NCBI GenBank assembly: GCA_947445035.1
Contig: CANFCK010000008.1
Coordinates: 1 to 64,000 of the forward strand
DNA: 64,000 nucleotides
DNA from: Deltaproteobacteria bacterium
Lineage (GTDB): Bacteria > Myxococcota_A > UBA796 > SXON01
Direction of reading: 5' to 3'
The stretch's first letter is position 1, and each line of letters starts with the position of its first letter. The notes under the pieces are model-generated. The model ran no database searches and was not told where the DNA came from. It saw nothing but the letters and a program-made list of their open reading frames with translations. A program made the position numbers and the translations under genes. Positions 14,167 through 63,423 of this stretch are shown here, one piece after another.

Positions 14167-16014
14167 CTATTCGTGCAGGAAGGTGCTGACCTTTCCGGGT
14201 GACTCGGCCGAGCGGACCATCAAGTCCTCTCGGCCGTCGCCGTCAATATCCTCGGCCCATGCCGAGTCGCCGAACCTGTTGCCCGGGTCCAGATCGAAGA
14301 AACCGGGCAAGCTGGTGGAGGGCAGGATGTCGCCCCCGCCCCGCAGAAGCGCAAGTTCCACGAACGCCACTTGCCCCGTGCCTGGCAGGCCGAGGATCAG
14401 GTCGTTGTCACCGTCGTCGTCCAAGTCGCCCACGCCGGTGGGCCGGAGGCTGGCGCTGTCGACCCCGCCGGAAAGGGTGACCATGGCCGCCCCGGTCCAG
14501 CTCGCTGTGAAGTCGGCACCATCGACGATCCAGGTGCGGCCATCTCCGGTCGCGAGGGCGTCCGCCGCGGTGTCGGTGATCATCGCCTCGTCGTAGCCGT
14601 TGCCGTCGATGTCAGGGAGCGTTGAAAACAACAGGCCGTAGGTGTAGGCCCCATAGTCTTGCAGGTCCAGGACACTCGTGGCGCCGCCTGAGCCGCGTTG
14701 CACGGAAGAGAGAAAGCGGAGCGTGCTCGCGCCGGACTCGTCCGCCATGCCGACGACCAGCTCGCCGAGTCCGTCGCCGTCCAGGTCGCCGAGCAGCGCG
14801 GTGTCCAGACAGGCGTAGTCCTCCGATGCGGCGCTGAAGTCCGCCGCGGAGACGCCCTGACTGCCGGAGAGGCTGCTCCAGGACGAGATGAGCACCGCCC
14901 CGTTCCCGGCCCCGCACCCGACGACGAGCGACCCAGCCTCGGGTTCTAGCAAAACCGCGCCCGCCGAGTCGTGGTCTACGTTGGCGACCTCAGCTCCAGT
15001 GCTCAGGTCATCGAGCCCGTAGAACGAGACATTTCCGCCGGTGGCGGAGCCGATCGCCAACGTCGTCTCGCCCGTGATGTCAGTCAGCGACATCGCGTAC
15101 CCGGTGTAGCCGAAGCCCTCGATGACCGAAAGCCCCTCGCTCTTCGGCGTAGTGATGCCGTTGGTCGAGGAGAGAATCCAGACCCTGCCCGCCGCGTAGG
15201 CCTCGCCCTCGTCATCGTACCCCTCCGTGCCCGGCGCACTCACCGCGAAGTCGCGCCGGCCGTCGTCGTCGCGGTCCGGCAGGAAGACTACCTTGTGGCC
15301 GAGCAGGTCCTCCCCGGTGCCGGAGTCGCCCGAGGCGCGGGACGTCGAGAGTGAGACTGAGACGTAGTCCACGATCTTGTCGCAGTCGTCGTCGTAGTCG
15401 TTCCAAAGTTCGTCCATGCCGGTGTTGACGAGGTCGTTGAGGTCGTCGCAGTCGCCGCCGGCGTGGGCTTCGGTCTCCTGACCGTCGTGGTCCTGGTCCC
15501 AGTCGTTGTCGCCAGCGCAGTCGGCGTCGGTGCCGTCATACCAGACCTCGACGGCCGAGTCGTTGACCTCAGCTGGCGTCAGGCCAGCTTCGTTGGGGTA
15601 GGGAATCGACTCGTCGTCCCAGCAGTCGTGGCTGATGTCGTAGCCGTCACCGTCGCAGTCGGTGCCGCCTTCCCAGCCATCACAGTCGTTGTCGAGCACG
15701 TCGTAACAGATCTCCACGTGCCCAGGATTGATGTTGGGATTGCTGTCATCGCAGTCGTCGCCCCCCCCGTTCTGGCCGATGTACCCATCGCCGTCGACGT
15801 CGTTGACATCGGCTCCGTCACAGTCTTCATCGACGCCGTTGTAGGGGACCTCGTAGTGGCCTGGGTAGACGTTGGCGTTGTCAGGCGAGCAATCAGCATC
15901 ATCGGGGACGCCGTCGCCGTCGCGGTCGGAGGCGGCCGATGTGCCGTCGCCCGTGTCGTCGGTCTCCCCGGCACCTTGGGTTTCACAGGCGAAAAGCAAC
16001 AGAGAAATGAGCAT
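14167..16014 (-). CDS. MopE-type / FG-GAP-like surface lipoprotein
   Basis: A 615-aa predicted lipoprotein. The start chosen at 16014 gives MLISLLLFACETQG, a short signal peptide with a lipobox ending at Cys; the open frame extends 19 codons further but without a signal. Residues about 30-235 carry Asp/Cys-rich MopE-type units (DRDGDGVPDDADCSPD, YNGVDEDCDGADV, WYDGTDADCAGDND), each like a calcium- or copper-binding DxDxDG loop. Residues about 245-615 are integrin-like FG-GAP repeats (DRDDDGRRDFAVSAPG, GDLDGDGLGELVVG, DIDGDGREDLMVR). Probably an extracellular metal-binding propeller; the ligand is not known. Transcribed towards rplQ. Confidence 0.8.
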   Translation of the reverse strand: MLISLLLFACETQGAGETDDTGDGTSAASDRDGDGVPDDADCSPDNANVYPGHYEVPYNGVDEDCDGADVNDVDGDGYIGQNGGGDDCDDSNPNINPGHVEICYDVLDNDCDGWEGGTDCDGDGYDISHDCWDDESIPYPNEAGLTPAEVNDSAVEVWYDGTDADCAGDNDWDQDHDGQETEAHAGGDCDDLNDLVNTGMDELWNDYDDDCDKIVDYVSVSLSTSRASGDSGTGEDLLGHKVVFLPDRDDDGRRDFAVSAPGTEGYDDEGEAYAAGRVWILSSTNGITTPKSEGLSVIEGFGYTGYAMSLTDITGETTLAIGSATGGNVSFYGLDDLSTGAEVANVDHDSAGAVLLEPEAGSLVVGCGAGNGAVLISSWSSLSGSQGVSAADFSAASEDYACLDTALLGDLDGDGLGELVVGMADESGASTLRFLSSVQRGSGGATSVLDLQDYGAYTYGLLFSTLPDIDGNGYDEAMITDTAADALATGDGRTWIVDGADFTASWTGAAMVTLSGGVDSASLRPTGVGDLDDDGDNDLILGLPGTGQVAFVELALLRGGGDILPSTSLPGFFDLDPGNRFGDSAWAEDIDGDGREDLMVRSAESPGKVSTFLHE

Positions 16015-16024
16015 CGGGACCCCG

Positions 16025-16047
16025 CGGCCGGGATTGTACCCCGGCCG
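16025..16047 (-). other. Perfect 8-bp hairpin 11 bp upstream of the 16014 start
   Basis: CGGCCGGG (16025-16032) pairs with CCCGGCCG (16040-16047) around a 7-nt loop. On the - strand the loop reads GTACAAT and the only ribosome-binding-like bases (GGGG) follow the stem. It may hide or set the translation start, or mark a promoter (TACAAT resembles a -10, with TTGACG 21 bp upstream, too long for a good spacing). Confidence 0.45.
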
Positions 16048-16069
16048 TCGGCCAAGCGGCGTCAAGTCC

Positions 16070-16121
16070 AAAAAAGGCAGAGCCCGCGCTGAGATTGGCC
16101 TCCCCTGCCTCTCTCAGCGCG
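16070..16121 (-). terminator. Intrinsic terminator of the small gene at 16139-16303
   Basis: Read on the - strand: a 10-bp perfect stem CGCGCTGAGA/TCTCAGCGCG (16121-16112 and 16094-16085), then GGCTCTGCC and a run of six T (16075-16070). It starts 18 bp after the stop of the 54-codon gene and isolates it from the lipoprotein gene. Confidence 0.7.
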
Positions 16122-39492: not shown

Positions 39493-40641
39493 TCACGGCT
39501 TGGTGTACGACGCGCCGTCGCTGAGCACGATGCCGTAGAAGCTGCCGCGGTCGCCAGGGTCGGAGATGTAGAGGTGGTCGGCCACGTTGGTCCCGTGCAC
39601 GATCCGCCACACCGTCTGATACTCGCCCGCCGACGCGGTCACGTAGAACTCCGGCCGGGTGTCGTCCGACGCATCGACCGCGAGCATAAACGGAGTCCAG
39701 TCCTCGTCGCTCCAGGAGTCCTGCATCTCCCACGTGGTCGTCGCCATGTCGAACTTCACCACGCCGTACGACCCGGCGTTGAAATCGAACGCGGGCGCGT
39801 ACCAGTTGCCGTCGTCGCCGTGGGACCCGCTCAGGGTGTAGATGGCCGGTGCGTCGAAGTTGGGCATCACCTGGAAAGTGAACCCTTCGTCCGGATGATA
39901 GGTCGCAAAACCGCCGTAGATGTCGAAGACTCCGACCGTTCCGGTCAGGGGGTCGGAAGCCAGGCCTAGCCCGAAGAACTCCTCCTCCGCGTTCCATGAC
40001 GCCAATTGGGTGAGGGTTCCGTCGCGAGTGACTGTGGCGAGTTGGTCGCCGAAGACGACGTAGATAGTCCCGTCTGGGGTGACGGTGACGCCGTAGGGCG
40101 GGAACTTGTACACCTCGGTATCGCTGAAGTCGGCGAACTGGGTACACGTGCCTTTGCCATCCACGTGTGCCAGGTAGGCGAGGCCGTCGTTGATGATCCA
40201 CTCGTCGGCCACCTGGGCACCGTCGGTCACGACGTGGTCGAGGAAGAAGGGCGCACAGGGCGAGATCGAAAGGTCGGCCTCAACTCGCCCGATGGTGTCG
40301 AACGTCAACAGGTGGCCGGCGCCGCTGGACTCCACCCAGGCGACCTCAAGCCCGGAGAAGTTCTCGTCGACCTTGCCGTCGCAGTCGTTGTCCAGGTCGT
40401 CGCTGTCGTCTTCGTCCCGCGCGGGGGAAACACGGGGATTGGCGTCGTCGCAATCGCCCTGCTCCGGAGAGAAGCCGTCGTCGTCTTGGTCGGCGTCGGT
40501 GTCGCCGCTGGTGTCGACACTGGTGTCGATGCCGCCGTTGTCAGTGTCCCCGGCGGTGTCTTTCGGGCCCACGCCGAAGCCGGTGTTGACCTCGTCGCAA
40601 GCGACAAGCAGGCAGAGGATGGGAAGCGTGCGCAGGGTCAT
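39493..40641 (-). CDS. MopE-type lipoprotein with beta-propeller-like body
   Basis: 382 aa. Start at ATG 40641 gives MTLRTLPILCLLVACDEVNT, a signal peptide with lipobox LVAC; the open frame runs 58 codons further upstream but is basic and overlaps the divergent gene. After an Asp/Thr-rich linker (GDTDNGGIDTSVDTSGDTD) it has two DxDxDG-type metal-binding units (DADQDDDGFSPEQGDCDD, DLDNDCDGKVDENF). The rest (about 115-382) is a repeat-rich beta domain (GVTVTPDGTIYVVFGDQLA). Probably surface exposed; function unknown. Confidence 0.75.
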   Translation of the reverse strand: MTLRTLPILCLLVACDEVNTGFGVGPKDTAGDTDNGGIDTSVDTSGDTDADQDDDGFSPEQGDCDDANPRVSPARDEDDSDDLDNDCDGKVDENFSGLEVAWVESSGAGHLLTFDTIGRVEADLSISPCAPFFLDHVVTDGAQVADEWIINDGLAYLAHVDGKGTCTQFADFSDTEVYKFPPYGVTVTPDGTIYVVFGDQLATVTRDGTLTQLASWNAEEEFFGLGLASDPLTGTVGVFDIYGGFATYHPDEGFTFQVMPNFDAPAIYTLSGSHGDDGNWYAPAFDFNAGSYGVVKFDMATTTWEMQDSWSDEDWTPFMLAVDASDDTRPEFYVTASAGEYQTVWRIVHGTNVADHLYISDPGDRGSFYGIVLSDGASYTKP

Positions 40642-40666
40642 CGGAGCAGTATATCGTTGCCGGACG
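40642..40666. promoter_or_regulatory. 25-bp divergent promoter with overlapping -10 elements
   Basis: AGTATATC contains TATATC on the + strand (40650-40655) and, sharing four bases, TATACT on the - strand (40653-40648), a good -10 match. The - strand element lies six bases before the lipoprotein ATG; the + strand one eleven bases before the Nudix ATG. Both imply very short or no 5' leader. No clear -35 is visible. Confidence 0.5.
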
Positions 40667-41212
40667 ATGCTCCGCGCCCCCCCCCTCCGGTCCTTCCTAC
40701 AACGGTTTGTCCCCGCCGACGCCACCGAGGCAGCGCACCGCGCCGCGATGCTCTCGCTCGCCGATGCGCCGGGCGACGCCTTCGCGCGAGACCACTTCGT
40801 TCCTGGCCATTTCACCGCCAGCGCCTTCGTGCTCTCTCCAGATGGTCAGGCGATATTGCTCATCTTCCACGAGAAGTTTCGGCGCTGGTTGCAACCGGGC
40901 GGCCACGTTGAGCCCCAGGACGTGGACCTTTTGGCGGCGGCGCTCCGTGAAGTGGAGGAGGAGACCGGTCTATCGGAGGTCGAGGTCCTCGGCGACGGTT
41001 GGTTCGATCTGGACGTCCACGACATCCCCGCGCGCAAAACTGAACCGGCGCACCAACACTTCGACGTTCGGGTGCTCCTCAAAGCACGGACGCTCGAGTT
41101 CGCCGCCGGATCGGACGCGTTGGCGGCCCGATGGGTGCCGTTGGCCGCGGCCCACGAGGTCGAAACGGACGAGTCGGTGCTGCGTGCAGTCCGCAAGCTC
41201 CGTTTGGGATAA
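40667..41212 (+). CDS. Nudix hydrolase
   Basis: A 181-aa Nudix-domain protein. The Nudix box is present as [20 protein letters not shown] followed by EETGL, with one extra residue between the first Gly and the REVEEETGL helix compared with the strict consensus, a variant common in this family. [16 protein letters not shown] and [12 protein letters not shown] complete the fold. Substrate unknown; it may clear a nucleoside or sugar diphosphate. ATG 40667 faces the lipoprotein gene across 25 bp. Confidence 0.85.
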
Positions 41213-52255: not shown

Positions 52256-55200
52256 ATGCGTCACGTCGCCACCGCTCTCCTCGTGTTTCTCGTCTCGGGC
52301 TGCGGCTCGACTTGGACCGGCCTCGATGGCGACGGGGACGGCTACACCCTCGCGCAGGGCGACTGTAATGATGGCCCGGAAGGCGGGGATATCGGGCCCG
52401 AGGCCACGGAGGTCTGGTACGACGGCGTGGATCAGGATTGCGACGGGAACGACTCGGATCAGGACCTGGACGGCGAGCCTGCACTCGCTGCGGGCGGCCT
52501 CGACTGCTGGGACGATCCCACGAACACCCCTGCAGACTTCGTCGCGATCAACGGCCTCGTTCAGCCAGAGGCGGCGGACGTGCTCCCCGGTGCGGCCGAG
52601 ATTTTCTACGACGGTGTCGACCAGGACTGCGACGGCGCCGACGACTTCGATCAGGATCGCGACGGTTTTGCGTCGACTGCCTGGGTGGAGACCCGCACCG
52701 AACTGCCTGTGGAGGACTGTTACGACGATGTGACGGAGGTTTACCCTGAGCTTTGGCCCGAGTGCGTGGTCGAGGCCAATCGTGTCGTCGAGACGCCGCT
52801 GGCTCCGGGTGCGGTCTACCCGGCGGCGGACGACACCTGGTACGACGGCACCGACGCCAACTGTGACCGCGAGGACGACTTCGACAAAGACGGCGACAGC
52901 TTTGCGGTCTGCGCGGAGTGTGACGACGATGACGAGACGGTGTTCCCCAATGATGCGGTGGAAATCTGGTACAACCACATCGACGAGAACTGCGACGGCA
53001 ACGATGCCGACCAGGACGGCGATGGGTACGTCGAGTCCGGCTATGTCGAGGCCGACCCAGGGAATCCGATCCACGTCGAGGGCGCGTACGGCACCGACGA
53101 CTGTTGGGACGACCCCACGGACATCCCGACCGGCTACGACGCCATCAACGGGAAGGCGCAGCCAGGCGCCGACGACGTACACCCCGATGCCACCGAGACC
53201 TGGTACGACGGCGTCGACGAAGATTGCGCTATGGACGATGACTTCGACCAGGATGGCGACGGCGATCCCGCCGAGGCGGAGCCCAATCGCAGCGGCCTCT
53301 TCGGATCGGACTGCGACGACCTTAACGGGACGATCTACAGCGATGCGCCCGAAACCTGGTACGACGGCACCGACTCCGACTGCGATGGGGGCTCGGACTA
53401 CGATCAGGACGCCGACGGCTACGATTCGTCGGCCTACAGCTACGGCACCAGCGACGACTGCGACGACACCAAATCAGAAGTGCATCCGTCGACGGCGGGC
53501 GATCTCGTCAACGAGGACTGCGGCACGACCTACGATGACGATTGTGACGGTGACACCAATGATGACGACGCCGATTCGTGCATCGAGTACTACGACGATG
53601 CCGACAGCGACGGCTACGGCGACGTCACCGACTCCCGCTGCCTGTGCACCGACGACGGCACCTACACCGAGACGGGCGTCACAACGAGTAATGACGATTG
53701 CGACGACACCCGCTCGGCGGTGAGCCCTGCGGCGACCAACGAGGACTGCGGCACCAGCTACGACGACGACTGCGACGCCGTCACCAACGAGCAGAACGGC
53801 ACCGACTGCACGACCTACTACCTCGACGCCGACGGCGACAACTACGGCACCACCGTCTCTCAGTGCTGGTGTTCGGGCTACGGCACCTATGACGCCAGCA
53901 ACGACGATGACTGCGACGACACGCGCGCGGCAGTGAGCCCGGCGGCCACCAACGAGAACTGCTCCACCAGCTACGACGATGACTGCGACGGGGTCACCAA
54001 CGAGCAGAACGGCTCATCGTGCACCACCTATTATTACGACGGCGACAACGACGCCTACGGCAATGCCAGCCTCTCGCAGTGCTGGTGCTCCACGTCCGGC
54101 AGTTACGACGTCACCAACGACGACGACTGCGACGATGCCGACGCCACCACCTTCCCCGGCGTCGCTGAAGAAGACAGCACCACCGCGTGCATGACCGACG
54201 CCGACGGCGACGGCTTCGGCGATACCACCGCGCCCTCGGGCGGCACGGCGGGCACCGACTGCGACGACGCTCGCTCGGGCGTCAGTCCCGACGGCACGGA
54301 GACCTGCGGCACCTCCTACGACGACGATTGCGACAGCTCGATCAACGACGTCGGCGCGCTCGGGTGCACGACCTACTACTACGACGGCGACAACGACACA
54401 TTCGGCAAGGCCTCGCTGTCGCAGTGCACCTGCACCACGTCCGGCAGCTACGACGTCACCGACAACACCGACTGTGACGACAGCGACGCCGACACCTTCC
54501 CCGGCGCGGCCAGCGTCGAGTCCGCCACCTCGTGTCGCAACGACGACGACAACGACGGTTACGGCGACACCACCGTGACCAGCGGCGTGACCGCCGGCAC
54601 CGACTGTGACGACGCCCGCAGCGCGGTGAACACCGCCGCGACCGAGTCCTGTTCCACCACCTACGACGACGACTGCGACAGCTCCGCCAACGACGTGGGC
54701 GCCACCGGGTGTACAACCTACTATTACGACGGCGACAACGATGGTTACGGGATCACCACGTCGACACAGTGCACCTGCACGTCCAGCGGCAGCTACGACA
54801 TCACCGGCACCACTTCTGCCAACGACGACTGCGACGACACCGACGACGACATCAGCCCCGGCGATCCAGAGCTGTGCACGACCACCGCGGACGATGACTG
54901 CGACGGCGGCACCAACGATGTCGGCGCTACGGGGTGCGTGACCTACTATTACGACGGGGATGTGGACGGCTATGGCATCACCACGTCGTCACAGTGTGCG
55001 TGTACGGGCACGGGTTTCTACACGGTCACCGGGGTCACGACGGCCAACGACGACTGCGATGACACCCGGGCCGCTGTCAGCCCTGGCGACCCGGAGGTCT
55101 GCACCACCACCTACGATGACGACTGCGACGGGTCGAGCAACGAGGTCGGCGCCTCCGACTGCACGACCTACTATTACGACGCCGACGTCGATGGCTACGG

Positions 55201-56497
55201 GCTCCTGACCACGACCCAGTGCGCCTGCGCCACCAGCGGATTCTACACCGTCACCGGCACGACCTCCGCCAACGACGACTGCGACGACACGCGCGCGACG
55301 GTGAGTCCTGCCGATCTCGAGGTCTGCACCACCACCTACGACGACGACTGCGACGGCTCCAGCAACGAGGTCGGCGCCTCGGACTGCACCAACTACTACT
55401 ACGACGGGGACAGCGACCTCTATGGGCTGCTCGCGACGTATCAGTGCGCGTGCGCCAGCAGCGGCCTCTACACGGTCACCGGAGTCACCGCCGCCAACGA
55501 CGACTGCGACGACACCCGCGCCGCCGTCAGCCCCGCCGATCTCGAGGTGTGCTCGACGACCTACGACGACGATTGCGACGGGTCCAGCAATGAGGCGGGC
55601 GCGTCGGATTGCACGACCTACTACTACGACGGCGACAACGACGGCTACGGCCTTTTGGCCACGACCCAGTGCACCTGCGCCAGCAGCGGCAGCTACGACG
55701 TCACCGGGACCACGGCGGCGACGGACGACTGTGACGATGCGGTTGCGACGACATACCCGGGCGCGGCCGACACCTTCGCCACCAACGACGGGGTCGACAA
55801 CGACTGCGACGACTTCATCGATGAAACGGGCGTGGCCTACGGCGACATCGTCATCACCGAGTTCTTCGGAGGCAACACCACGGCGACGTACGACTGGGTT
55901 GAGATCTACAACAACTCGGGGGACACGATCTCGCTGGCCAACTGGACGATGGACCTCTGTCACGAAGGCGACACCGGGATTGCGGCGCCGTACCTGTCCG
56001 CCGATTGCGCGTCTTGGGTGACGGTGACCTTCCCGAGCACGGCCACCATCGCGGACGACAGCTACTACGTGGTGTGCGACATCCTCACCAGCTTCACCAC
56101 CACGACCGACTGTGATCTGGTGCTCACCAGCTACGATGATCCGGCCTACACCACCTCGACCGATCTGGAGAACGGGGTGGGTGGTGTCGAGGTGGCGCTC
56201 GACGGGACGCTCATCGACAGCGTCTTCTGGTGGCAGGACAACGGCAACGACGACTGGCCGGCCGACGCCAGCACCGCGGTCACCGCACAACTCACGTCGA
56301 TCCAGCTCGACCTGGACACCATCAACGCGGTGAGTCCGGACCCCGCCGACACCAATGATGACTACTCGACTTCGGCGAGCAATCCCTACCTGGACGACAT
56401 CTGGTGCACCGCCGAGGATGCGGGGGTCAGCACCGACTGGGCAACCTTGTACACCTTTGTGGGCAGTCCAGGCGCGGCCAACGTCGTCTGCCCGTAA
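52256..56497 (+). CDS. Giant MopE-type metal-binding lipoprotein with lamin-tail domain (1413 aa)
   Basis: Starts ATG 52256: MRHVATALLVFLVSGCGST, a signal peptide with lipobox VSGC; an open frame 52 codons longer lacks a signal. Residues ~20-420 hold about six units of the type WYDGTDANCDREDDFDKDGD. Residues ~425-1190 hold nine units of the type TTYDDDCDGSSNEVGASDC followed by YYYDGDNDGYG, each with paired Cys and DxDxDG loops. Residues ~1195-1413 form a lamin-tail domain (YGDIVITEFFGGNTTATYDW, VEIYNNSGDTISLANWTMDL). Cysteine pairs suggest disulfides in an exported, calcium- or copper-binding rod on the cell surface. First gene of a four-lipoprotein operon. Confidence 0.85.
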   Translation: MRHVATALLVFLVSGCGSTWTGLDGDGDGYTLAQGDCNDGPEGGDIGPEATEVWYDGVDQDCDGNDSDQDLDGEPALAAGGLDCWDDPTNTPADFVAINGLVQPEAADVLPGAAEIFYDGVDQDCDGADDFDQDRDGFASTAWVETRTELPVEDCYDDVTEVYPELWPECVVEANRVVETPLAPGAVYPAADDTWYDGTDANCDREDDFDKDGDSFAVCAECDDDDETVFPNDAVEIWYNHIDENCDGNDADQDGDGYVESGYVEADPGNPIHVEGAYGTDDCWDDPTDIPTGYDAINGKAQPGADDVHPDATETWYDGVDEDCAMDDDFDQDGDGDPAEAEPNRSGLFGSDCDDLNGTIYSDAPETWYDGTDSDCDGGSDYDQDADGYDSSAYSYGTSDDCDDTKSEVHPSTAGDLVNEDCGTTYDDDCDGDTNDDDADSCIEYYDDADSDGYGDVTDSRCLCTDDGTYTETGVTTSNDDCDDTRSAVSPAATNEDCGTSYDDDCDAVTNEQNGTDCTTYYLDADGDNYGTTVSQCWCSGYGTYDASNDDDCDDTRAAVSPAATNENCSTSYDDDCDGVTNEQNGSSCTTYYYDGDNDAYGNASLSQCWCSTSGSYDVTNDDDCDDADATTFPGVAEEDSTTACMTDADGDGFGDTTAPSGGTAGTDCDDARSGVSPDGTETCGTSYDDDCDSSINDVGALGCTTYYYDGDNDTFGKASLSQCTCTTSGSYDVTDNTDCDDSDADTFPGAASVESATSCRNDDDNDGYGDTTVTSGVTAGTDCDDARSAVNTAATESCSTTYDDDCDSSANDVGATGCTTYYYDGDNDGYGITTSTQCTCTSSGSYDITGTTSANDDCDDTDDDISPGDPELCTTTADDDCDGGTNDVGATGCVTYYYDGDVDGYGITTSSQCACTGTGFYTVTGVTTANDDCDDTRAAVSPGDPEVCTTTYDDDCDGSSNEVGASDCTTYYYDADVDGYGLLTTTQCACATSGFYTVTGTTSANDDCDDTRATVSPADLEVCTTTYDDDCDGSSNEVGASDCTNYYYDGDSDLYGLLATYQCACASSGLYTVTGVTAANDDCDDTRAAVSPADLEVCSTTYDDDCDGSSNEAGASDCTTYYYDGDNDGYGLLATTQCTCASSGSYDVTGTTAATDDCDDAVATTYPGAADTFATNDGVDNDCDDFIDETGVAYGDIVITEFFGGNTTATYDWVEIYNNSGDTISLANWTMDLCHEGDTGIAAPYLSADCASWVTVTFPSTATIADDSYYVVCDILTSFTTTTDCDLVLTSYDDPAYTTSTDLENGVGGVEVALDGTLIDSVFWWQDNGNDDWPADASTAVTAQLTSIQLDLDTINAVSPDPADTNDDYSTSASNPYLDDIWCTAEDAGVSTDWATLYTFVGSPGAANVVCP
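54662..55740 (+). repeat. Tandem 225-bp coding repeats, five consecutive units
   Basis: The unit marked by the codons for YDDDCD (or ADDDCD) recurs at 54662, 54887, 55112, 55337 and 55562, an exact 75-codon period. Two earlier units are 345 bp long (start 53972 and 54317) because of a 120-bp insertion each. Neighbouring units differ at many third codon positions, so the protein is conserved more than the DNA. Confidence 0.85.
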
Positions 56498-56509
56498 TAG
56501 CGGGATCGA

Positions 56510-59128
56510 ATGCGGCTGCTTCTCCCCCTCCTGCTCGTCGGTTGCGGCTCGTCCTGGCTTGCCCAGGACCTCGATGGTGATGGTTGGACCGCCGCAGACG
56601 GCGACTGTTTCGACAACCCCGAACAGGACGCCGACGGCATCGCTGCGGCCGACATCCACCCCGGGGGCTCCAACGAGACCTGGTACGACGGGGTCGATCA
56701 GAACTGTGATGGGGCCGACGACTACGACAAAGATGCGGACGGGCACCGGGCGGCGGAATTCGAGGGCGGGGACGATTGTTGGGACGACCCCGACGCCGCC
56801 CCGCCAGCGTTCATCGCGCTGAGCGGCTTCTACCAACCGTTGGCCCGCGAGGTGCATCCGGGCGCCGAGGAGACCTGGTACGACGGTGTCGATGAAAACT
56901 GCGACGCCGGCTCTGACTTCGACCAGGATGGCGATGGCGCTGACACCCTGTGGCACGAGCAGGCTGCTGGCGCTGTCGGCGACGACTGTCTCGACGCCGG
57001 CACGGATCCGTTCGACAATCCGGCGCTCGCGGCGCCGGAAAACGTGAACCCCGACGCGGTGGAGACCTGGTACGACGGCACCGACGCCAACTGTGACGGG
57101 GCCGACGACTACGACCAGGACGCCGACGGGTGGGTGGTCGATGACGAGTGCGACGACCTGGACCCCGACATCTACCCCAATGATGAGGCCGAAACCTGGT
57201 ACGACGGCATCGACAGCAATTGCGACGGCCACAGCGACTACGACCAAGATGACGACGGCTACGACTCGGCCGACTACGCAGGGGACGACTGCAACGACGA
57301 CCCGGCCGCCCCCGCTTCCGGTCGCGATGGCGCCAGCGTTGGTGCGGACGACATTCATCCAGACGCTCGCGACACGGCCTACGATGAAATCGACGCCGAC
57401 TGCGCGGGGGACAGCGACTTTGACGCCGATGGCGACGGACAGGACGCGGATGACGTCGCCAACGGGTCCGGGCTCTTCGGCACCGACTGCGATGACGACG
57501 ACGGAACGGTGTACACCGGCGCGGCGGAGGTCTGGTACGACGCCGTCGACGCGAATTGTTCGGGCGGCAGCGACTTCGACCAGGACGGGGATGGTTTTGA
57601 CTCGTCGTCGTACGGCTACGGCACCTCCGACGACTGCGACGACGCCAGCGCGGTCGTGCATCCGAGCACCGACGCCGATCCCGTCGACGAGGACTGCGCG
57701 ACTGTGGCCGACGATGATTGCACCGGCACCGACAACGACGAGGACGCGGTGGATTGCGTGGAGTACTTCCGCGACGCCGACGCCGACAGCTATGGCAAAC
57801 TGAGCGACTCAGGCTGCTTCTGCGCGGCGTCCGGCACCTACACCGTGACCGGCGTCACCGCCGCGAACGACGACTGCAATGACGCCAAGTCGACGGTGAA
57901 CCCGGGTATTTCTGTCGAGGACTGCGATACGTCGGACGACGATGATTGCGACGGCGACACCAACGAGCTCGGCGGCGACAACTGTGAGGAGTGGTACGGC
58001 GATGGCGATGCCGATGGGTACGGCGTCGGGACCGCAGCCTGCTATTGCGCTGCGACCGGGGCGTTCTCTTCTGCCAGCGATGACGATTGCGACGACGCCG
58101 ACGACAGCGTCCATCCCGGCGCGACCGAGACGTGTGACCTCGTGGACGAGGACTGCGACGGCGCCGTCGATGAGGGGGTCAGCCACTACTATATCGACGC
58201 TGACGGTGACCTTTACGGGGATGACACCACGGAGACCTGCTCCTCCGGCGGGGGACGCATCGCGACCGGTGGCGACTGCGATGATGGCGACGAGCGCATC
58301 TACCCGTCCGCTCCGGAGCTCTGCGACGAACAACAGAACGATTGCGACGCCGCGAGCTGGGCCACCACGGACGAGGATGGGACGGTGTCGTACGCCACGA
58401 CGGCGGACGTGTGGACCAGCGTCACCTCCGCTTGGGCCGCCGGCACGAGCACGACGGTGGCCGCGATCTCGCTGGCTGCCACCGGAACCTACCAGGTGTG
58501 CGCGGGAACCTGGTACGTCTCCCTGGTTGCCGCGTCCGGCGACGACGTCGATGTTGTGGCGCCCTACGGCGCGAGCGCCACCATTCTGGATCGAAACGGC
58601 ACGCTGGGGCCGCTCTTGTCGGTGACCGACAGCTCGGTGACGATGGACGGCTTCACGCTGACCGGAGGCACCGGGCAGCTTGGTGGCGCCTCCCGATACG
58701 GCGGGGCGGTCCTGTCGTACGCCACCACGTCGTCGGCGGTTGCGAGCGTCGTGCTGACGGATTGCGACGTGACCGGAAACACCGCGACCTACGGGGGCGG
58801 GATCGCCGCCTACAACTATGGCGACATCACCCTGACCAACACCGAGGTCTACGACAACAGCGCGACCAACGGCGGCGGGATATTCGTGCAGCGCGGCGCC
58901 GTCGTCGCCACGGCCGGGGGGGTGCACGACAACGTCTCCTCCAGCGAGGGGGGGGGCGTCTACTTCTCGACGAACCAGGGTTCACTGACGGTGACCGGCG
59001 GGGATTGGCTCACCAACAGCCCGGATGACGCGGCGGGGGGCAGTGGCGGATTCGGCACCGAGTCTGACGCATCCTACGGCAGCGCGGCTGACTTCTCCTG
59101 CCTTGGGAACACCGGGTGCACGCCGTAG
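56510..59128 (+). CDS. MopE-type metal-binding lipoprotein with beta-helix domain (872 aa)
   Basis: Signal peptide and lipobox MRLLLPLLLVGCGSSWLAQD. Residues ~20-390 contain about six units of the type ETWYDGVDQNCDGADDYDKD; residues ~390-600 contain longer Cys-paired units (VDEDCDGAVDEGVSHYYIDA). The C-terminal ~210 residues form a right-handed parallel beta-helix of the polymorphic-outer-membrane type (TDCDVTGNTATYGGGIAAYN, NTEVYDNSATNGGGIFVQRG). It starts 12 bp behind the larger paralogue and shares its repeat types, so the two arose by duplication and swapped C-terminal domains. Its stop lies inside the next start. Confidence 0.85.
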   Translation: MRLLLPLLLVGCGSSWLAQDLDGDGWTAADGDCFDNPEQDADGIAAADIHPGGSNETWYDGVDQNCDGADDYDKDADGHRAAEFEGGDDCWDDPDAAPPAFIALSGFYQPLAREVHPGAEETWYDGVDENCDAGSDFDQDGDGADTLWHEQAAGAVGDDCLDAGTDPFDNPALAAPENVNPDAVETWYDGTDANCDGADDYDQDADGWVVDDECDDLDPDIYPNDEAETWYDGIDSNCDGHSDYDQDDDGYDSADYAGDDCNDDPAAPASGRDGASVGADDIHPDARDTAYDEIDADCAGDSDFDADGDGQDADDVANGSGLFGTDCDDDDGTVYTGAAEVWYDAVDANCSGGSDFDQDGDGFDSSSYGYGTSDDCDDASAVVHPSTDADPVDEDCATVADDDCTGTDNDEDAVDCVEYFRDADADSYGKLSDSGCFCAASGTYTVTGVTAANDDCNDAKSTVNPGISVEDCDTSDDDDCDGDTNELGGDNCEEWYGDGDADGYGVGTAACYCAATGAFSSASDDDCDDADDSVHPGATETCDLVDEDCDGAVDEGVSHYYIDADGDLYGDDTTETCSSGGGRIATGGDCDDGDERIYPSAPELCDEQQNDCDAASWATTDEDGTVSYATTADVWTSVTSAWAAGTSTTVAAISLAATGTYQVCAGTWYVSLVAASGDDVDVVAPYGASATILDRNGTLGPLLSVTDSSVTMDGFTLTGGTGQLGGASRYGGAVLSYATTSSAVASVVLTDCDVTGNTATYGGGIAAYNYGDITLTNTEVYDNSATNGGGIFVQRGAVVATAGGVHDNVSSSEGGGVYFSTNQGSLTVTGGDWLTNSPDDAAGGSGGFGTESDASYGSAADFSCLGNTGCTP

Positions 59129-61134
59129 CCTTCGGACTGGTCCTCGGCTGCCAGACGGCGGCGACGCCCCTTCCTGAGTCCGGGGAGTCCGGCGGGTCCG
59201 ACACCTCCCACAGCGGAGCGGTGGCGCCTCCCAGCGTGGTGGTGACGGTGACTCTCGACGGCACCCCGATCGCGGGCGCGTGGGTGCTCCAGGCGGGGAC
59301 CGAGCGCCGCTACGAGACCGATGCGGACGGGCTTGCGGAGGTTCCGATCGACGCGACGATCGAGGGCGATCTGTGGCTGGCCGCGAGCTACCCGAGCGCG
59401 TGGAACGTGGGCGCGCCCGTGGATGGCGGCACCGCGGTGACCATCGAACTATCGAGCTTCGACCCTGCGGACAACCCCGACTACGTGTTCGCCGATCCTG
59501 GGTTGGACGCGACGGCGAACTCCAACGCCACGGAGTGCAGCCACTGCCACCTGTCGCTCCATCGCGGCTGGTCGGCCAGCCCCCACGCTTCTTCGGCGAA
59601 AAACCCCGTGGTTCAGGCGGTGTACCAGGGCTTCGATCGTGAGGTCGTCGATCGCGCCACGTGCGAGGCGCGGGGCGGAAGCTGGGGAGCCGCGGTCGAG
59701 CCGGGGTCGGCCCTGTCGATCGAGGCGTGCCACGTGGCCGACGCGGTCAGCGGCGGTGGGGGGTGCGCGGACTGCCACGCGCCCGGCATCGGCGGTGCAG
59801 GGTTGGCGGGGCACGATCTGCTCGAGGCGACGGGGCTCGCCTACGACTACGGCGTGCACTGTGATGTCTGCCACAAGGTGGAGTCCGTCGACGTCGGCGC
59901 GGTGGCGGGCGTTGCCGGCTGGCTCAACGTTTTGCGCCCGAGCGATCCCTCTCCGTCCCGGCTGCTCGGGCCCTACCATCCCCTCCAGTTCGGACCCTAC
60001 ATCGACGTGCTCAACCCGTTGATGGGGGGGGTGCTGCGCGAACATCTGCACGAGGCGGACTTCTGTGGAGGCTGCCATCAGCTCGATCAGGGCGTGCTCG
60101 TAGAGGGGGCGGAGCTGGATCAGTTGCGATGGCCGGAGGGCACGCTACCGGTTCAGACCACCTGGGCTGAGTGGGACGAAGGCCCGATGAACCCGGCCGC
60201 ACCCTGCCAAAGCTGCCACATGCCGCCGTTGTCGGGCGCCGGCAACTCAGCCGACCTCGGCAACGAGTTCGATCTCGTACCAGGCGTCGCGACCGGTTGG
60301 TATCGAGCGCCCGGCGCGGTACGTGCGCACTCGTGGGTGGGGCCGCGTCAACCGGACAGCGGCATGCTTGAACTGGCCGCTTTTTTGGACATTGAGGCTG
60401 AGCTCGTCGGCGCGGAGCTGGTGGCGACGGTCACGGTCCAGAACTCCGGTCCGGGGCACGCGCTGCCCACGGGTGAACCCCTGCGGAATCTGGTCCTTCG
60501 CGTCGAGGCCGCTTGCGATGGTGCGCCGCTTGCGGCGACGGGTGGCGACGTGGTTCCGGTCTGGGGTGGGACCGACGGCATGCTCGCGTTGCCGGCCGAC
60601 CTGGCGGTGGTGGTCGGGGCGGCTCCTGGCGACCGCCTGCGTCTGTTGCGGAATGAAGGCTGGGTGGACTACCGAGGCTTCGGCGCCTTTGGCGATGGGC
60701 GCTTCTCGGCGGCCGAGAAGGGGCTTCCCGACTATGCGCTCATCGGGGACGCGGAGGTTCTCGCGGTGGACGACCAGGGCCGTGTCACGCTCGACCACCC
60801 GGAGTGGGTGGCGCAGGCGGATACCGCCTTCTGGGTCGTTGCCAGCAACGTTTCGGAGGTGGGTGCGGTCGGCGGTCTGCCCGGATTCGGGTTCGCCCGG
60901 GTGCTGGTCGGTGACGACGGGGAGCGCATGGTGCCCCACCATCTCGCCGTGGACGTCGAAAGTGACAATCGCCTCTTGCCGACCGAGTCCTTCACGACGG
61001 AGCACCGATTCGCCGCGGAGTGCGCGTCGCCGACGGTCACCGCAACGTTGCGCTATCGAGCCTACCCCTGGGACCAGGCGCAGCGCTACGGGTGGGAGGT
61101 CGAGGACCGGGTGATGGCGAAGGTGACGTGGTGA
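59116..61134 (+). CDS. Pentaheme c-type cytochrome lipoprotein
   Basis: 672 aa with a signal peptide and lipobox (AVAFGLVLGC, Cys 12). Five heme-binding CxxCH motifs: CSHCH (141), CADCH (217), CDVCH (249), CGGCH (317) and CQSCH (364), in a cytochrome fold resembling the c554/NrfB multiheme group. An N-terminal beta domain (about 38-112) precedes it, and the C-terminal ~300 residues are a beta-sandwich with no heme motif. GTG 59116 start lies inside the end of the MopE gene (13-bp overlap) and is needed for the signal. Probably carries electrons at the outer face of the cell for the oxidase downstream. Confidence 0.88.
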   Translation: MHAVAFGLVLGCQTAATPLPESGESGGSDTSHSGAVAPPSVVVTVTLDGTPIAGAWVLQAGTERRYETDADGLAEVPIDATIEGDLWLAASYPSAWNVGAPVDGGTAVTIELSSFDPADNPDYVFADPGLDATANSNATECSHCHLSLHRGWSASPHASSAKNPVVQAVYQGFDREVVDRATCEARGGSWGAAVEPGSALSIEACHVADAVSGGGGCADCHAPGIGGAGLAGHDLLEATGLAYDYGVHCDVCHKVESVDVGAVAGVAGWLNVLRPSDPSPSRLLGPYHPLQFGPYIDVLNPLMGGVLREHLHEADFCGGCHQLDQGVLVEGAELDQLRWPEGTLPVQTTWAEWDEGPMNPAAPCQSCHMPPLSGAGNSADLGNEFDLVPGVATGWYRAPGAVRAHSWVGPRQPDSGMLELAAFLDIEAELVGAELVATVTVQNSGPGHALPTGEPLRNLVLRVEAACDGAPLAATGGDVVPVWGGTDGMLALPADLAVVVGAAPGDRLRLLRNEGWVDYRGFGAFGDGRFSAAEKGLPDYALIGDAEVLAVDDQGRVTLDHPEWVAQADTAFWVVASNVSEVGAVGGLPGFGFARVLVGDDGERMVPHHLAVDVESDNRLLPTESFTTEHRFAAECASPTVTATLRYRAYPWDQAQRYGWEVEDRVMAKVTW

Positions 61135-62489
61135 TTTTCACCCTTTTCGGCTGTGTGGCGCCTGGCGTCGTCGCCGACACTGGCTCGGTCCCCCCCGAGA
61201 CGGCCGCCGACACCGCGACCGCGGGGCCGATCCCGTTGCCCTTCCCCCCCGCCGCCGTGGATCTCGACGCCACCGAGGGCCGCGTGTGGTTCGCCCTCTC
61301 CGCCCAATCGGCGACGCACGACATCGGTGGCACCGAGCTTGCCGGGTACGGCTATGACGGCGTGGCGCCGGGACCGGTGCTCCGTGCTCGCGTGGGCGAC
61401 GAGGTGACGGTCGAACTCCACAATGCCCTCGACACCCCCACCACCCTGCACTGGCATGGGATGAGCGTGCCCAATGAGATGGATGGCGTGGAGCGCGTGC
61501 AGACGCCGATCCCGCCCGGCGCGGGCTTCACCTACACGTTCACCGCCACACACGCCGGCACGTTCTGGGTGCACCCCCACGTCGATACCGCCCGACAGGT
61601 CGACCTCGGTCTATACGCTGCCGTCGTGGTGACGGAGCCCACCGAACCCCAGGCCGATCACGATGTCGTCCTGGTCTTCGATGCCTGGGGAGAGGCCGAG
61701 TCGGGCGTCGGCGCCGCGGACGATCACACGCCACCGGACCCGCGGACACAGGTGTGGACGGTCAACGGTGCGGTGAGCCCCGTGTGGACACTGGAGCCGG
61801 CCCAGTCGGTGCGGGCCCGGCTTCTCAACGCGTCGAACACCAGCTACCTCTCGCTGAGCTGGCCTGGGGCGCGCCTGTTGGCCACCGACCAGGGGTTGTC
61901 GGCGTCTCCCGCGGCGGTCGAGGCGCTGGTGCTCGCGCCGGGGGATCGCGCCGAGGTGGAGGTCCTGGCGAGCGGGGGCACCGTGGAGGTCAGCACGGCC
62001 ATGTGGTCGCCGGCGGGCGGCGCCAGCTATGGCGAGCCCAGAACGCTGCTCACGGTCGTGGGCGGCGAGGACGGGCCCGAGCCACTCGCCTTCGTGTTCT
62101 CAGGGGCCGCGCCGTCGATCGATCCGGGGCGCACCGACCTGCTCTACACCTTTTCGGGGGGGGCGCCCGACGAGGACTGGCTCATCAACGGCGAGGCCTG
62201 GCCCGACGTGACCGCGGCCAACGTTGAGCTCGAGGCCGACGTGATCATCGAGGTGCGCAACCTCAGCGCGACGAGTCACCCCTTTCATCTGCACGGCCAT
62301 CGGTTCGAGGTGCTTTCGGTCGGTGGGGTCGCCTCGCCCGCCCGCCGGTTCGAAGACACGGTCGACGTGCCGATTCGCAGCACGCTCCGGTTGCGAATGA
62401 CCGCCGACAATCCCGGGCAGTGGCTGGTGCATTGCCACCTGCTGGGCCACGAGGAGGGGGGGATGATGACGGAGTTGGTGGTGGAGTAG
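61131..62489 (+). CDS. Multicopper oxidase lipoprotein
   Basis: 452 aa. GTG 61131 overlaps the cytochrome stop (GTGA) and gives MIFTLFGCVAPG with lipobox LFGC. Copper ligands: HWHG (107-110), HPH (148-150), HPFHLHGH (~383-390) and HCHLLGHEEGGM (~434-445), the full set for one type 1 and a trinuclear centre. The last motif carries the Cys between His residues and ends with Met as axial ligand candidate. It is short for a three-domain oxidase but complete at the sites. Could oxidise Cu(I), Fe(II), Mn(II) or phenols; substrate unknown. Confidence 0.92.
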   Translation: MIFTLFGCVAPGVVADTGSVPPETAADTATAGPIPLPFPPAAVDLDATEGRVWFALSAQSATHDIGGTELAGYGYDGVAPGPVLRARVGDEVTVELHNALDTPTTLHWHGMSVPNEMDGVERVQTPIPPGAGFTYTFTATHAGTFWVHPHVDTARQVDLGLYAAVVVTEPTEPQADHDVVLVFDAWGEAESGVGAADDHTPPDPRTQVWTVNGAVSPVWTLEPAQSVRARLLNASNTSYLSLSWPGARLLATDQGLSASPAAVEALVLAPGDRAEVEVLASGGTVEVSTAMWSPAGGASYGEPRTLLTVVGGEDGPEPLAFVFSGAAPSIDPGRTDLLYTFSGGAPDEDWLINGEAWPDVTAANVELEADVIIEVRNLSATSHPFHLHGHRFEVLSVGGVASPARRFEDTVDVPIRSTLRLRMTADNPGQWLVHCHLLGHEEGGMMTELVVE

Positions 62490-62568: not shown

Positions 62569-63423
62569 TCAGCGCGGCCCTTCCAGGAGAAAGGCGGAGA
62601 CTTCTACACCGAAGTTCATCGGCCAATGACCGAGGAAGGCGGGGAGAAAACTGCGACAGCGCAGGCATACGACCGCCAGCAGCGCGCTCCCGACGAACGA
62701 CGACAACATCTCGAGCTCGGGCTTTCCCCGGTGCAAGAGGAAGTATCCGAGGCTGACATACAAGATCGCGGCACGGTTGCCGTGGGTTTTTGCGATCGCG
62801 AAAAGTCCGAGCCCGTGCCAGAAGAACTCTTCCGCGAACAGGCAGGCGCCACGCAGGAGTTGCACCCCAAGCAGCTGCATGAAGTCGGCCCGGGCGCCCA
62901 CGTCTTGCGGGTAGTACGCCCGGAGGCTGGGCAAAAGCGCCACCACGAGGAACGACGCGGGGAGGATGATCGCCCCGGCGATGGCCATCTTCGGGCCCCA
63001 CCAGCGCCAATCGCCGAGGCCGATCCCGTAGTCGTCGGCACGAACGTCGGAGGCGAGCCAGGTGCCCACCGACACCACGGCCGCCAGCGCCAACGGCGCC
63101 AAGTACCGGCCCGGATCGGTCTCCGCCCAGGTTTTCGCCTCGCCCATCAACTTCGCTGCCCACCACGGAGCCGCGACGAGCAGCGTCACCACGATCGCCG
63201 CGCCCGTGAGCGCGCCACGCCGCCGGGTTGCCCCCCACGCCGCGAGGAACGCCAGCGGAATGAACAGGTAGATCGAGTCGTAGCCAGCGGCCAACATGCG
63301 GCCGCTCCGGGGCATCAGCTTCCAATCACAGAAACAGCACCATGCCATCATCGTGGCTGGGAGGCCGCCCGCGAGCAGGCTCGCGGCGTTGAACTCGGCG
63401 ATGAACGGGCGCAGGCGAGACAT
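62569..63423 (-). CDS. CPBP-family membrane protein with altered protease motif
   Basis: 284 aa, with about eight hydrophobic segments (SIYLFIPLAFLAAWGA, AAIVVTLLVAAPWWAAKLMG, FLVVALLPSLRAYY). The CPBP/Abi motif, usually EExxxR, appears as AEEFFWHGLGLFA, with His replacing Arg; a later HRGKPELEMLSSF and FLGHWPMNFGVEV match motifs 2 and 3 in part. CPBP proteins are intramembrane proteases or their relatives. The change may impair activity. It is divergent from the mvaB-like gene. Confidence 0.75.
   Translation of the reverse strand: MSRLRPFIAEFNAASLLAGGLPATMMAWCCFCDWKLMPRSGRMLAAGYDSIYLFIPLAFLAAWGATRRRGALTGAAIVVTLLVAAPWWAAKLMGEAKTWAETDPGRYLAPLALAAVVSVGTWLASDVRADDYGIGLGDWRWWGPKMAIAGAIILPASFLVVALLPSLRAYYPQDVGARADFMQLLGVQLLRGACLFAEEFFWHGLGLFAIAKTHGNRAAILYVSLGYFLLHRGKPELEMLSSFVGSALLAVVCLRCRSFLPAFLGHWPMNFGVEVSAFLLEGPR

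Follow-up and report, generated by a model that had tools for sequence, protein, structure and literature searches.

A pentaheme cytochrome and multicopper oxidase pair of predicted lipoproteins, widespread in Myxococcota and accompanied in one genus by a separable pair of MopE-type repeat proteins

The four-gene cluster at positions 52256-62489 of the 64,000-nucleotide stretch of DNA analyzed here (the window) consists of two modules, namely a pentaheme cytochrome (CYT) and multicopper oxidase (MCO) pair that is widespread and conserved in many Myxococcota, and a pair of repeat proteins (MOP1 and MOP2) that is separable from it and constitutes a genus-level addition. In our best explanation, to which we give a probability of roughly 0.5, the core would be an electron-transfer machine made of two lipid-anchored parts in the cell envelope. 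CYT, a cytochrome of the c552/PHC kind, would collect electrons and deliver them to the type-1 copper of MCO, its dedicated partner, whose trinuclear copper cluster would then reduce oxygen to water. Possible donors are Fe(II), Mn(II), reduced organic or sulfur compounds, and the cell itself. We infer that the transfer would be direct and would run in this direction, with oxygen as the acceptor and the proteins at the outer membrane or cell surface. MOP1 and MOP2 would form a separate module of Asp-rich repeat lipoproteins that joined the core in this genus, probably of a calcium-binding type and perhaps acting as a scaffold or adhesive stalk. Somewhat more tentatively, we propose that a lipid-anchored, oxygen-reducing complex in which a pentaheme CYT feeds a three-domain MCO, as two coupled lipoproteins or as one fused protein, may represent a previously undescribed class, found in Myxococcota.

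All four genes lie on the forward strand as intact open reading frames: MOP1 (52256-56497, 1413 aa), MOP2 (56510-59128, 872 aa), CYT (59116-61134, 672 aa) and MCO (61131-62489, 452 aa), the last two with GTG starts. The coordinates, lipoboxes and intergenic distances of 12, -13 and -4 bases given by the initial annotation were all verified in the reading frames; MOP2 and CYT thus overlap by 13 bases (59116-59128), and CYT and MCO by a 4-base start-stop overlap, GTGA (61131-61134). Inspection of the junctions of the four genes revealed no terminator-like site. The proteins are all predicted lipoproteins by lipobox motif (VSGC in MOP1, LVGC in MOP2, VLGC in CYT and LFGC in MCO). The signal sequences of CYT and MCO are very short, with 11 residues before the Cys in CYT and 7 in MCO and no Lys or Arg; a lipobox was found in 61 of 68 CYT relatives and 34 of 38 MCO relatives, and the N-termini of many relatives are equally short (e.g., MIWWFGC, MILLLGC).

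The five CxxCH motifs noted earlier in the third gene were confirmed at CYT positions 141, 217, 249, 317, and 364 and are invariant in a 44-row alignment, in which five histidines outside these motifs (143, 157, 248, 405, and 448) are also invariant or nearly so, a pattern that would fit bis-His electron-transfer hemes. Comparison of CYT with Pfam gave nothing above cut-off; a PDB profile search led to the penta-heme cytochrome c552 of Thermochromatium tepidum (5ze8, E 5e-13), which is the nearest solved structure. The AlphaFold2 model of CYT (pLDDT 88) matched the same entry (E 7e-14, 18% identity) in a superposition that is partial only (rmsd 9.6; TM 0.62 by target, 0.37 by query). By its five CxxCH motifs and modeled fold, CYT has the features of penta-heme c552-like cytochromes: the fold match covers most of the chain, and the HAxPTG motif and the C-terminal beta domain are shared as well. 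It differs from c552 in its predicted lipid anchor, in an extra N-terminal domain that in the model matches carboxypeptidase-regulatory-like domains, in its larger C-terminal domain, and in its coupling to MCO. A study of cable bacteria (PMC11976967) related c552 to archaeal cytochrome nanowires and to a pentaheme family (PHC) of cable bacteria and Geobacter that is proposed to include ExtKL; CYT was compared with ExtKL and Gsu2801 only through their common similarity to c552.

MCO is identified by its sequence as a multicopper oxidase, with three cupredoxin domains (all three Cu-oxidase domains in Pfam) and predicted type 1, 2, and 3 ligands. The claim that its copper ligands are complete held up: H107, H109, H148, H150, H383, H386, H388, H434, C435, H436, H440, and M445 are all invariant in a 26-row alignment. 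Assignment as CueO or CopA was rejected, as these two gave the best NCBIfam scores of MCO and yet missed the curated cut-offs by far (159.6 of the 525 bits required for CueO, 156 of the 478.95 required for CopA). MCO scores among relatives were bimodal, at 500 bits or more in the subfamily that partners CYT and at 354 bits or less in other multicopper oxidases.

The claim that the cytochrome and the oxidase belong together is borne out by their distribution. In a first sample of relatives, 26 loci have MCO directly downstream of CYT and in the same orientation; in a second sample, which overlaps the first, the two genes are adjacent in 38 of the 57 loci with room. The cultured relatives Plesiocystis pacifica (L105) and Enhygromyxa salina (L086) are among the carriers of the pair. 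Of the 38 linked pairs, 37 offer an MCO start codon that gives the same -4 overlap, the sole exception (L110) being a near-copy of a locus that has the overlap (L111). Across 58 genomes, 29 carry both CYT and the high-scoring MCO subfamily, 6 only CYT (at least three of them, G023, G048, and G054, cut by contig ends), 1 only MCO, and 22 neither (Fisher p 1.5e-9, kinship of the genomes being ignored). Chance adjacency is ruled out by this linkage, the co-occurrence, the -4 overlap and the fusions described below. Most linked loci cluster in a single clade of the CYT tree (SH-aLRT 99), and the unlinked ones sit in a Polyangiaceae-type branch or branches, where an MFS transporter and a small repeat lipoprotein are among the neighbors; CYT can act without MCO, since one branch of its homologs lacks an MCO gene next to it. 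Other recurring CYT neighbors form only small clusters, and the neighborhoods of CYT loci in relatives contained no recurring porin or other electron conduit and no recurring metal-transport gene. A MauG-like CCP adjoins CYT-MCO in two loci (L092 and L094) and a diheme c in another (L089); in L092 (1702-10539) the pair is followed by an NHL protein, the MauG-like di-heme peroxidase, and two more MCO genes. The titles of four loci (L069, L083, L093, and L120) name Klebsiella pneumoniae or Bifidobacterium breve and look wrong, as CYT in these groups with Myxococcota-type sequences.

The strongest evidence that CYT and MCO work jointly is their natural fusion in a single reading frame, found in two draft genomes of different families, G195 (family f37, 1157 aa, L178) and G250 (family f46, 1159 aa, L180). 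Both fusions keep the five hemes and all 12 copper ligands, and neither junction contains a second signal peptide. They probably arose more than once, since G227, of the same family as G195, has CYT and MCO as separate genes. In two further genomes (G162 and G198; L177 and L179) CYT continues into a fused C-terminal domain of ~370 aa that is weakly MCO-like and has no recognizable copper ligands (hhalign with two sequences, E 7.8e-5, probability 61%, the ligands lost in the alignment); this is only suggestive, and the domain may be a copper-less relic of a multicopper oxidase.

In multicopper oxidases generally, electrons pass from the type-1 copper to the trinuclear cluster and on to O2, the usual electron sources being small molecules or metals. 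The order first proposed for this locus, from metal through MCO to the cytochrome, runs contrary to this flow, which makes transfer from CYT through MCO to O2 the more plausible. A heme module joined to a cupredoxin enzyme is also known from the cytochrome c-fused copper nitrite reductases of Ralstonia and Pseudoalteromonas, in which the heme donates to type-1 copper, and by this comparison a multiheme module fused to MCO would most simply be its electron donor; the fusions found here differ from those reductases in combining a pentaheme module with a three-domain MCO that would carry a trinuclear cluster. Pairing of an MCO with a c-type cytochrome is itself already known, since the two genes adjoin in the Leptothrix MofA-MofB-MofC operon and the Geobacter OmpB cluster (PMC5566968). 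Compared with these clusters by gene arrangement, what differs here is the pentaheme, c552-like partner, the conserved 4-base overlap, and the natural fusions; our limited search of the open-access literature turned up no description of a pentaheme-MCO pair or fusion. A dedicated pentaheme donor, at times part of the oxidase chain itself, would couple a multiheme wire to oxygen in a new manner, and the fusions make heme-to-MCO coupling testable in one purified protein.

The four-gene set was sought in relatives, the MOP pair being traced by the C-terminal ends that are unique to each of its two proteins. The linkage was kept in 8 of the 11 sampled genomes (species) of the genus (G000, G001, G002, and G006 to G010, of which G008 to G010 have an additional FG-GAP MopE-type gene in the cluster), while the MOP pair proved separable from CYT-MCO. 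The MOP1 C-terminal region was found in 10 of the 11 genomes and in a member of another genus (G012), which has MOP genes without CYT. Among the remaining genomes of the genus, G005 carries MOP1-MOP2 and CYT-MCO on separate contigs, G004 has MOP2 apart from CYT-MCO, and G003 has MOP1 and MOP2, with ~1.3 kb between them, without a CYT or an MCO of this subfamily. Outside the four-gene arrangement, another PF11617 gene lies directly upstream of CYT only in L077, which belongs to G005 of the same genus and has a different MopE-type gene at that place, and in L093; an association of MOP with CYT beyond the genus was rejected, as these two cases come at about the rate expected from a very abundant family.

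Whether the two modules of the genus share a function is about evenly balanced: the MOP and redox pairs may be mere neighbors, perhaps co-transcribed, without joint function, a reading compatible with electron flow from CYT through MCO to oxygen. Each module is found without the other, MOP2 has other genes downstream in G003 (lipase-like) and in G005, and the linkage in the genus may be due to descent alone because the flanking ABC, CPBP, and HMGL genes are also syntenic with the cluster. The tight MOP2/CYT junction argues the other way, as seven loci of the genus, down to ~53% CYT identity, have a CYT start codon no more than 13 bases away from the MOP2 stop. The CPBP/Rce1-like protein of the window (62569-63423, reverse strand), syntenic in several genomes of the genus, scored below threshold against archaeomyxosortase MrtA (68.9 against 200 bits).

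The MOP proteins share the PF11617 motif with the copper-binding protein MopE. Pfam detected 12 PF11617 stretches and a C-terminal lamin-tail domain in MOP1, and 7 stretches in MOP2, whose C-terminal region was modeled as all-beta and beta-helix-like and whose repeats (pLDDT ~27) gave a model uninformative on repeat shape. MOP2, alone and as a 7-sequence profile, aligned solely to residues 1-45 of MopE* (2vov), and neither search matched the C-terminal beta core with the Cu(I) site, which consists of Kyn130, His132, and His203 (PMC3423442). CorA, which binds Cu, resembles MopE in the C-terminal part only (PMC3912023), so copper binding is probably defined by something other than the PF11617 repeat. 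Calcium stabilized MopE* (PMC3423442), and a second ion in CorA was interpreted as calcium (PMC3912023). The 1413 residues of MOP1 include 279 Asp, 6 His, and 4 Met, and about 68 or more different PF11617 frames occur among the 150 best matches in the 5.3 Mb genome itself (a visual count that told frames apart by contig and length). Because the match lies outside the Cu(I) site, the proteins are rich in Asp and poor in His and Met, the family is abundant, and calcium has been linked to MopE* and CorA, we consider it likelier that the MOP1 and MOP2 repeats bind calcium-type ions than copper. The MopE/SACCP system of Methylococcus capsulatus resembles the cluster in its PF11617 motif and in an adjoining redox partner gene (PMC3912023), and differs from it in that the partner is a co-transcribed di-heme peroxidase rather than a pentaheme cytochrome and in the MopE copper core, which MOP2 appears not to share.

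Two other uses of the redox pair were weighed against oxygen reduction fed by CYT. It is conceivable, but rather unlikely, that the pair is a metal-oxidizing module in which MCO uses O2 to oxidize Cu(I), Fe(II), or Mn(II), serving detoxification or mineral deposition, with the cytochrome in an accessory role like that proposed for MofC beside MofA. The MofA/MofC and OmpB combinations (PMC5566968) point this way, as do the leading, if far sub-threshold, CueO and CopA scores and a heavy-metal P-type ATPase that precedes CYT in one locus (L087), whereas MCO lacks Met-rich stretches, with 6 Met among its 452 residues, metal-transport genes do not recur among CYT-locus neighbors, and the fusions argue for electron transfer between the two parts. 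We judge distinctly less probable a role in extracellular electron transfer, with CYT in the nanowire-related pentaheme family proposed with ExtKL and MCO aiding mineral reduction or oxidation like OmpB; the structural match to c552 is consistent with it, but ties CYT to ExtKL/PHC only through that common similarity, and no conserved porin-cytochrome conduit was found near CYT loci, while a multicopper oxidase suggests aerobic use.

Least probable of all is the reading of the initial annotation, in which MopE-type rods capture copper, MCO oxidizes it, and the cytochrome carries the electrons away. Its broader view of an extracellular metal and redox module survives as an envelope redox operon of predicted lipoproteins; copper capture on the MopE repeats is not supported. 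The PF11617 matches and the linkage within the genus speak for capture, and truncated MopE* lacking its first 24 residues lost binding to a Cu(II) column, so those positions may bind Cu(II) weakly and one such repeat may add weak Cu(II) binding (PMC3423442). Against it stand the Cu(I) site that lies outside the residues matched by MOP2, the scarcity of His and Met in MOP1, the separable modules, and the very large number of PF11617 frames in the genome. The annotation 'Cu-binding_MopE' in Myxococcota should not be taken as copper binding.

Two more PF11617 genes are present in the window on the reverse strand (14167-16071 and 39493-40815), one clear and the second just below cut-off. A second five-CxxCH cytochrome, c7-like and of 388 aa, is encoded at L064 (G000:C25, 5048-10870), where its neighbor is a protein of 1539 aa that carries FG-GAP repeats and 14 PF11617 stretches.
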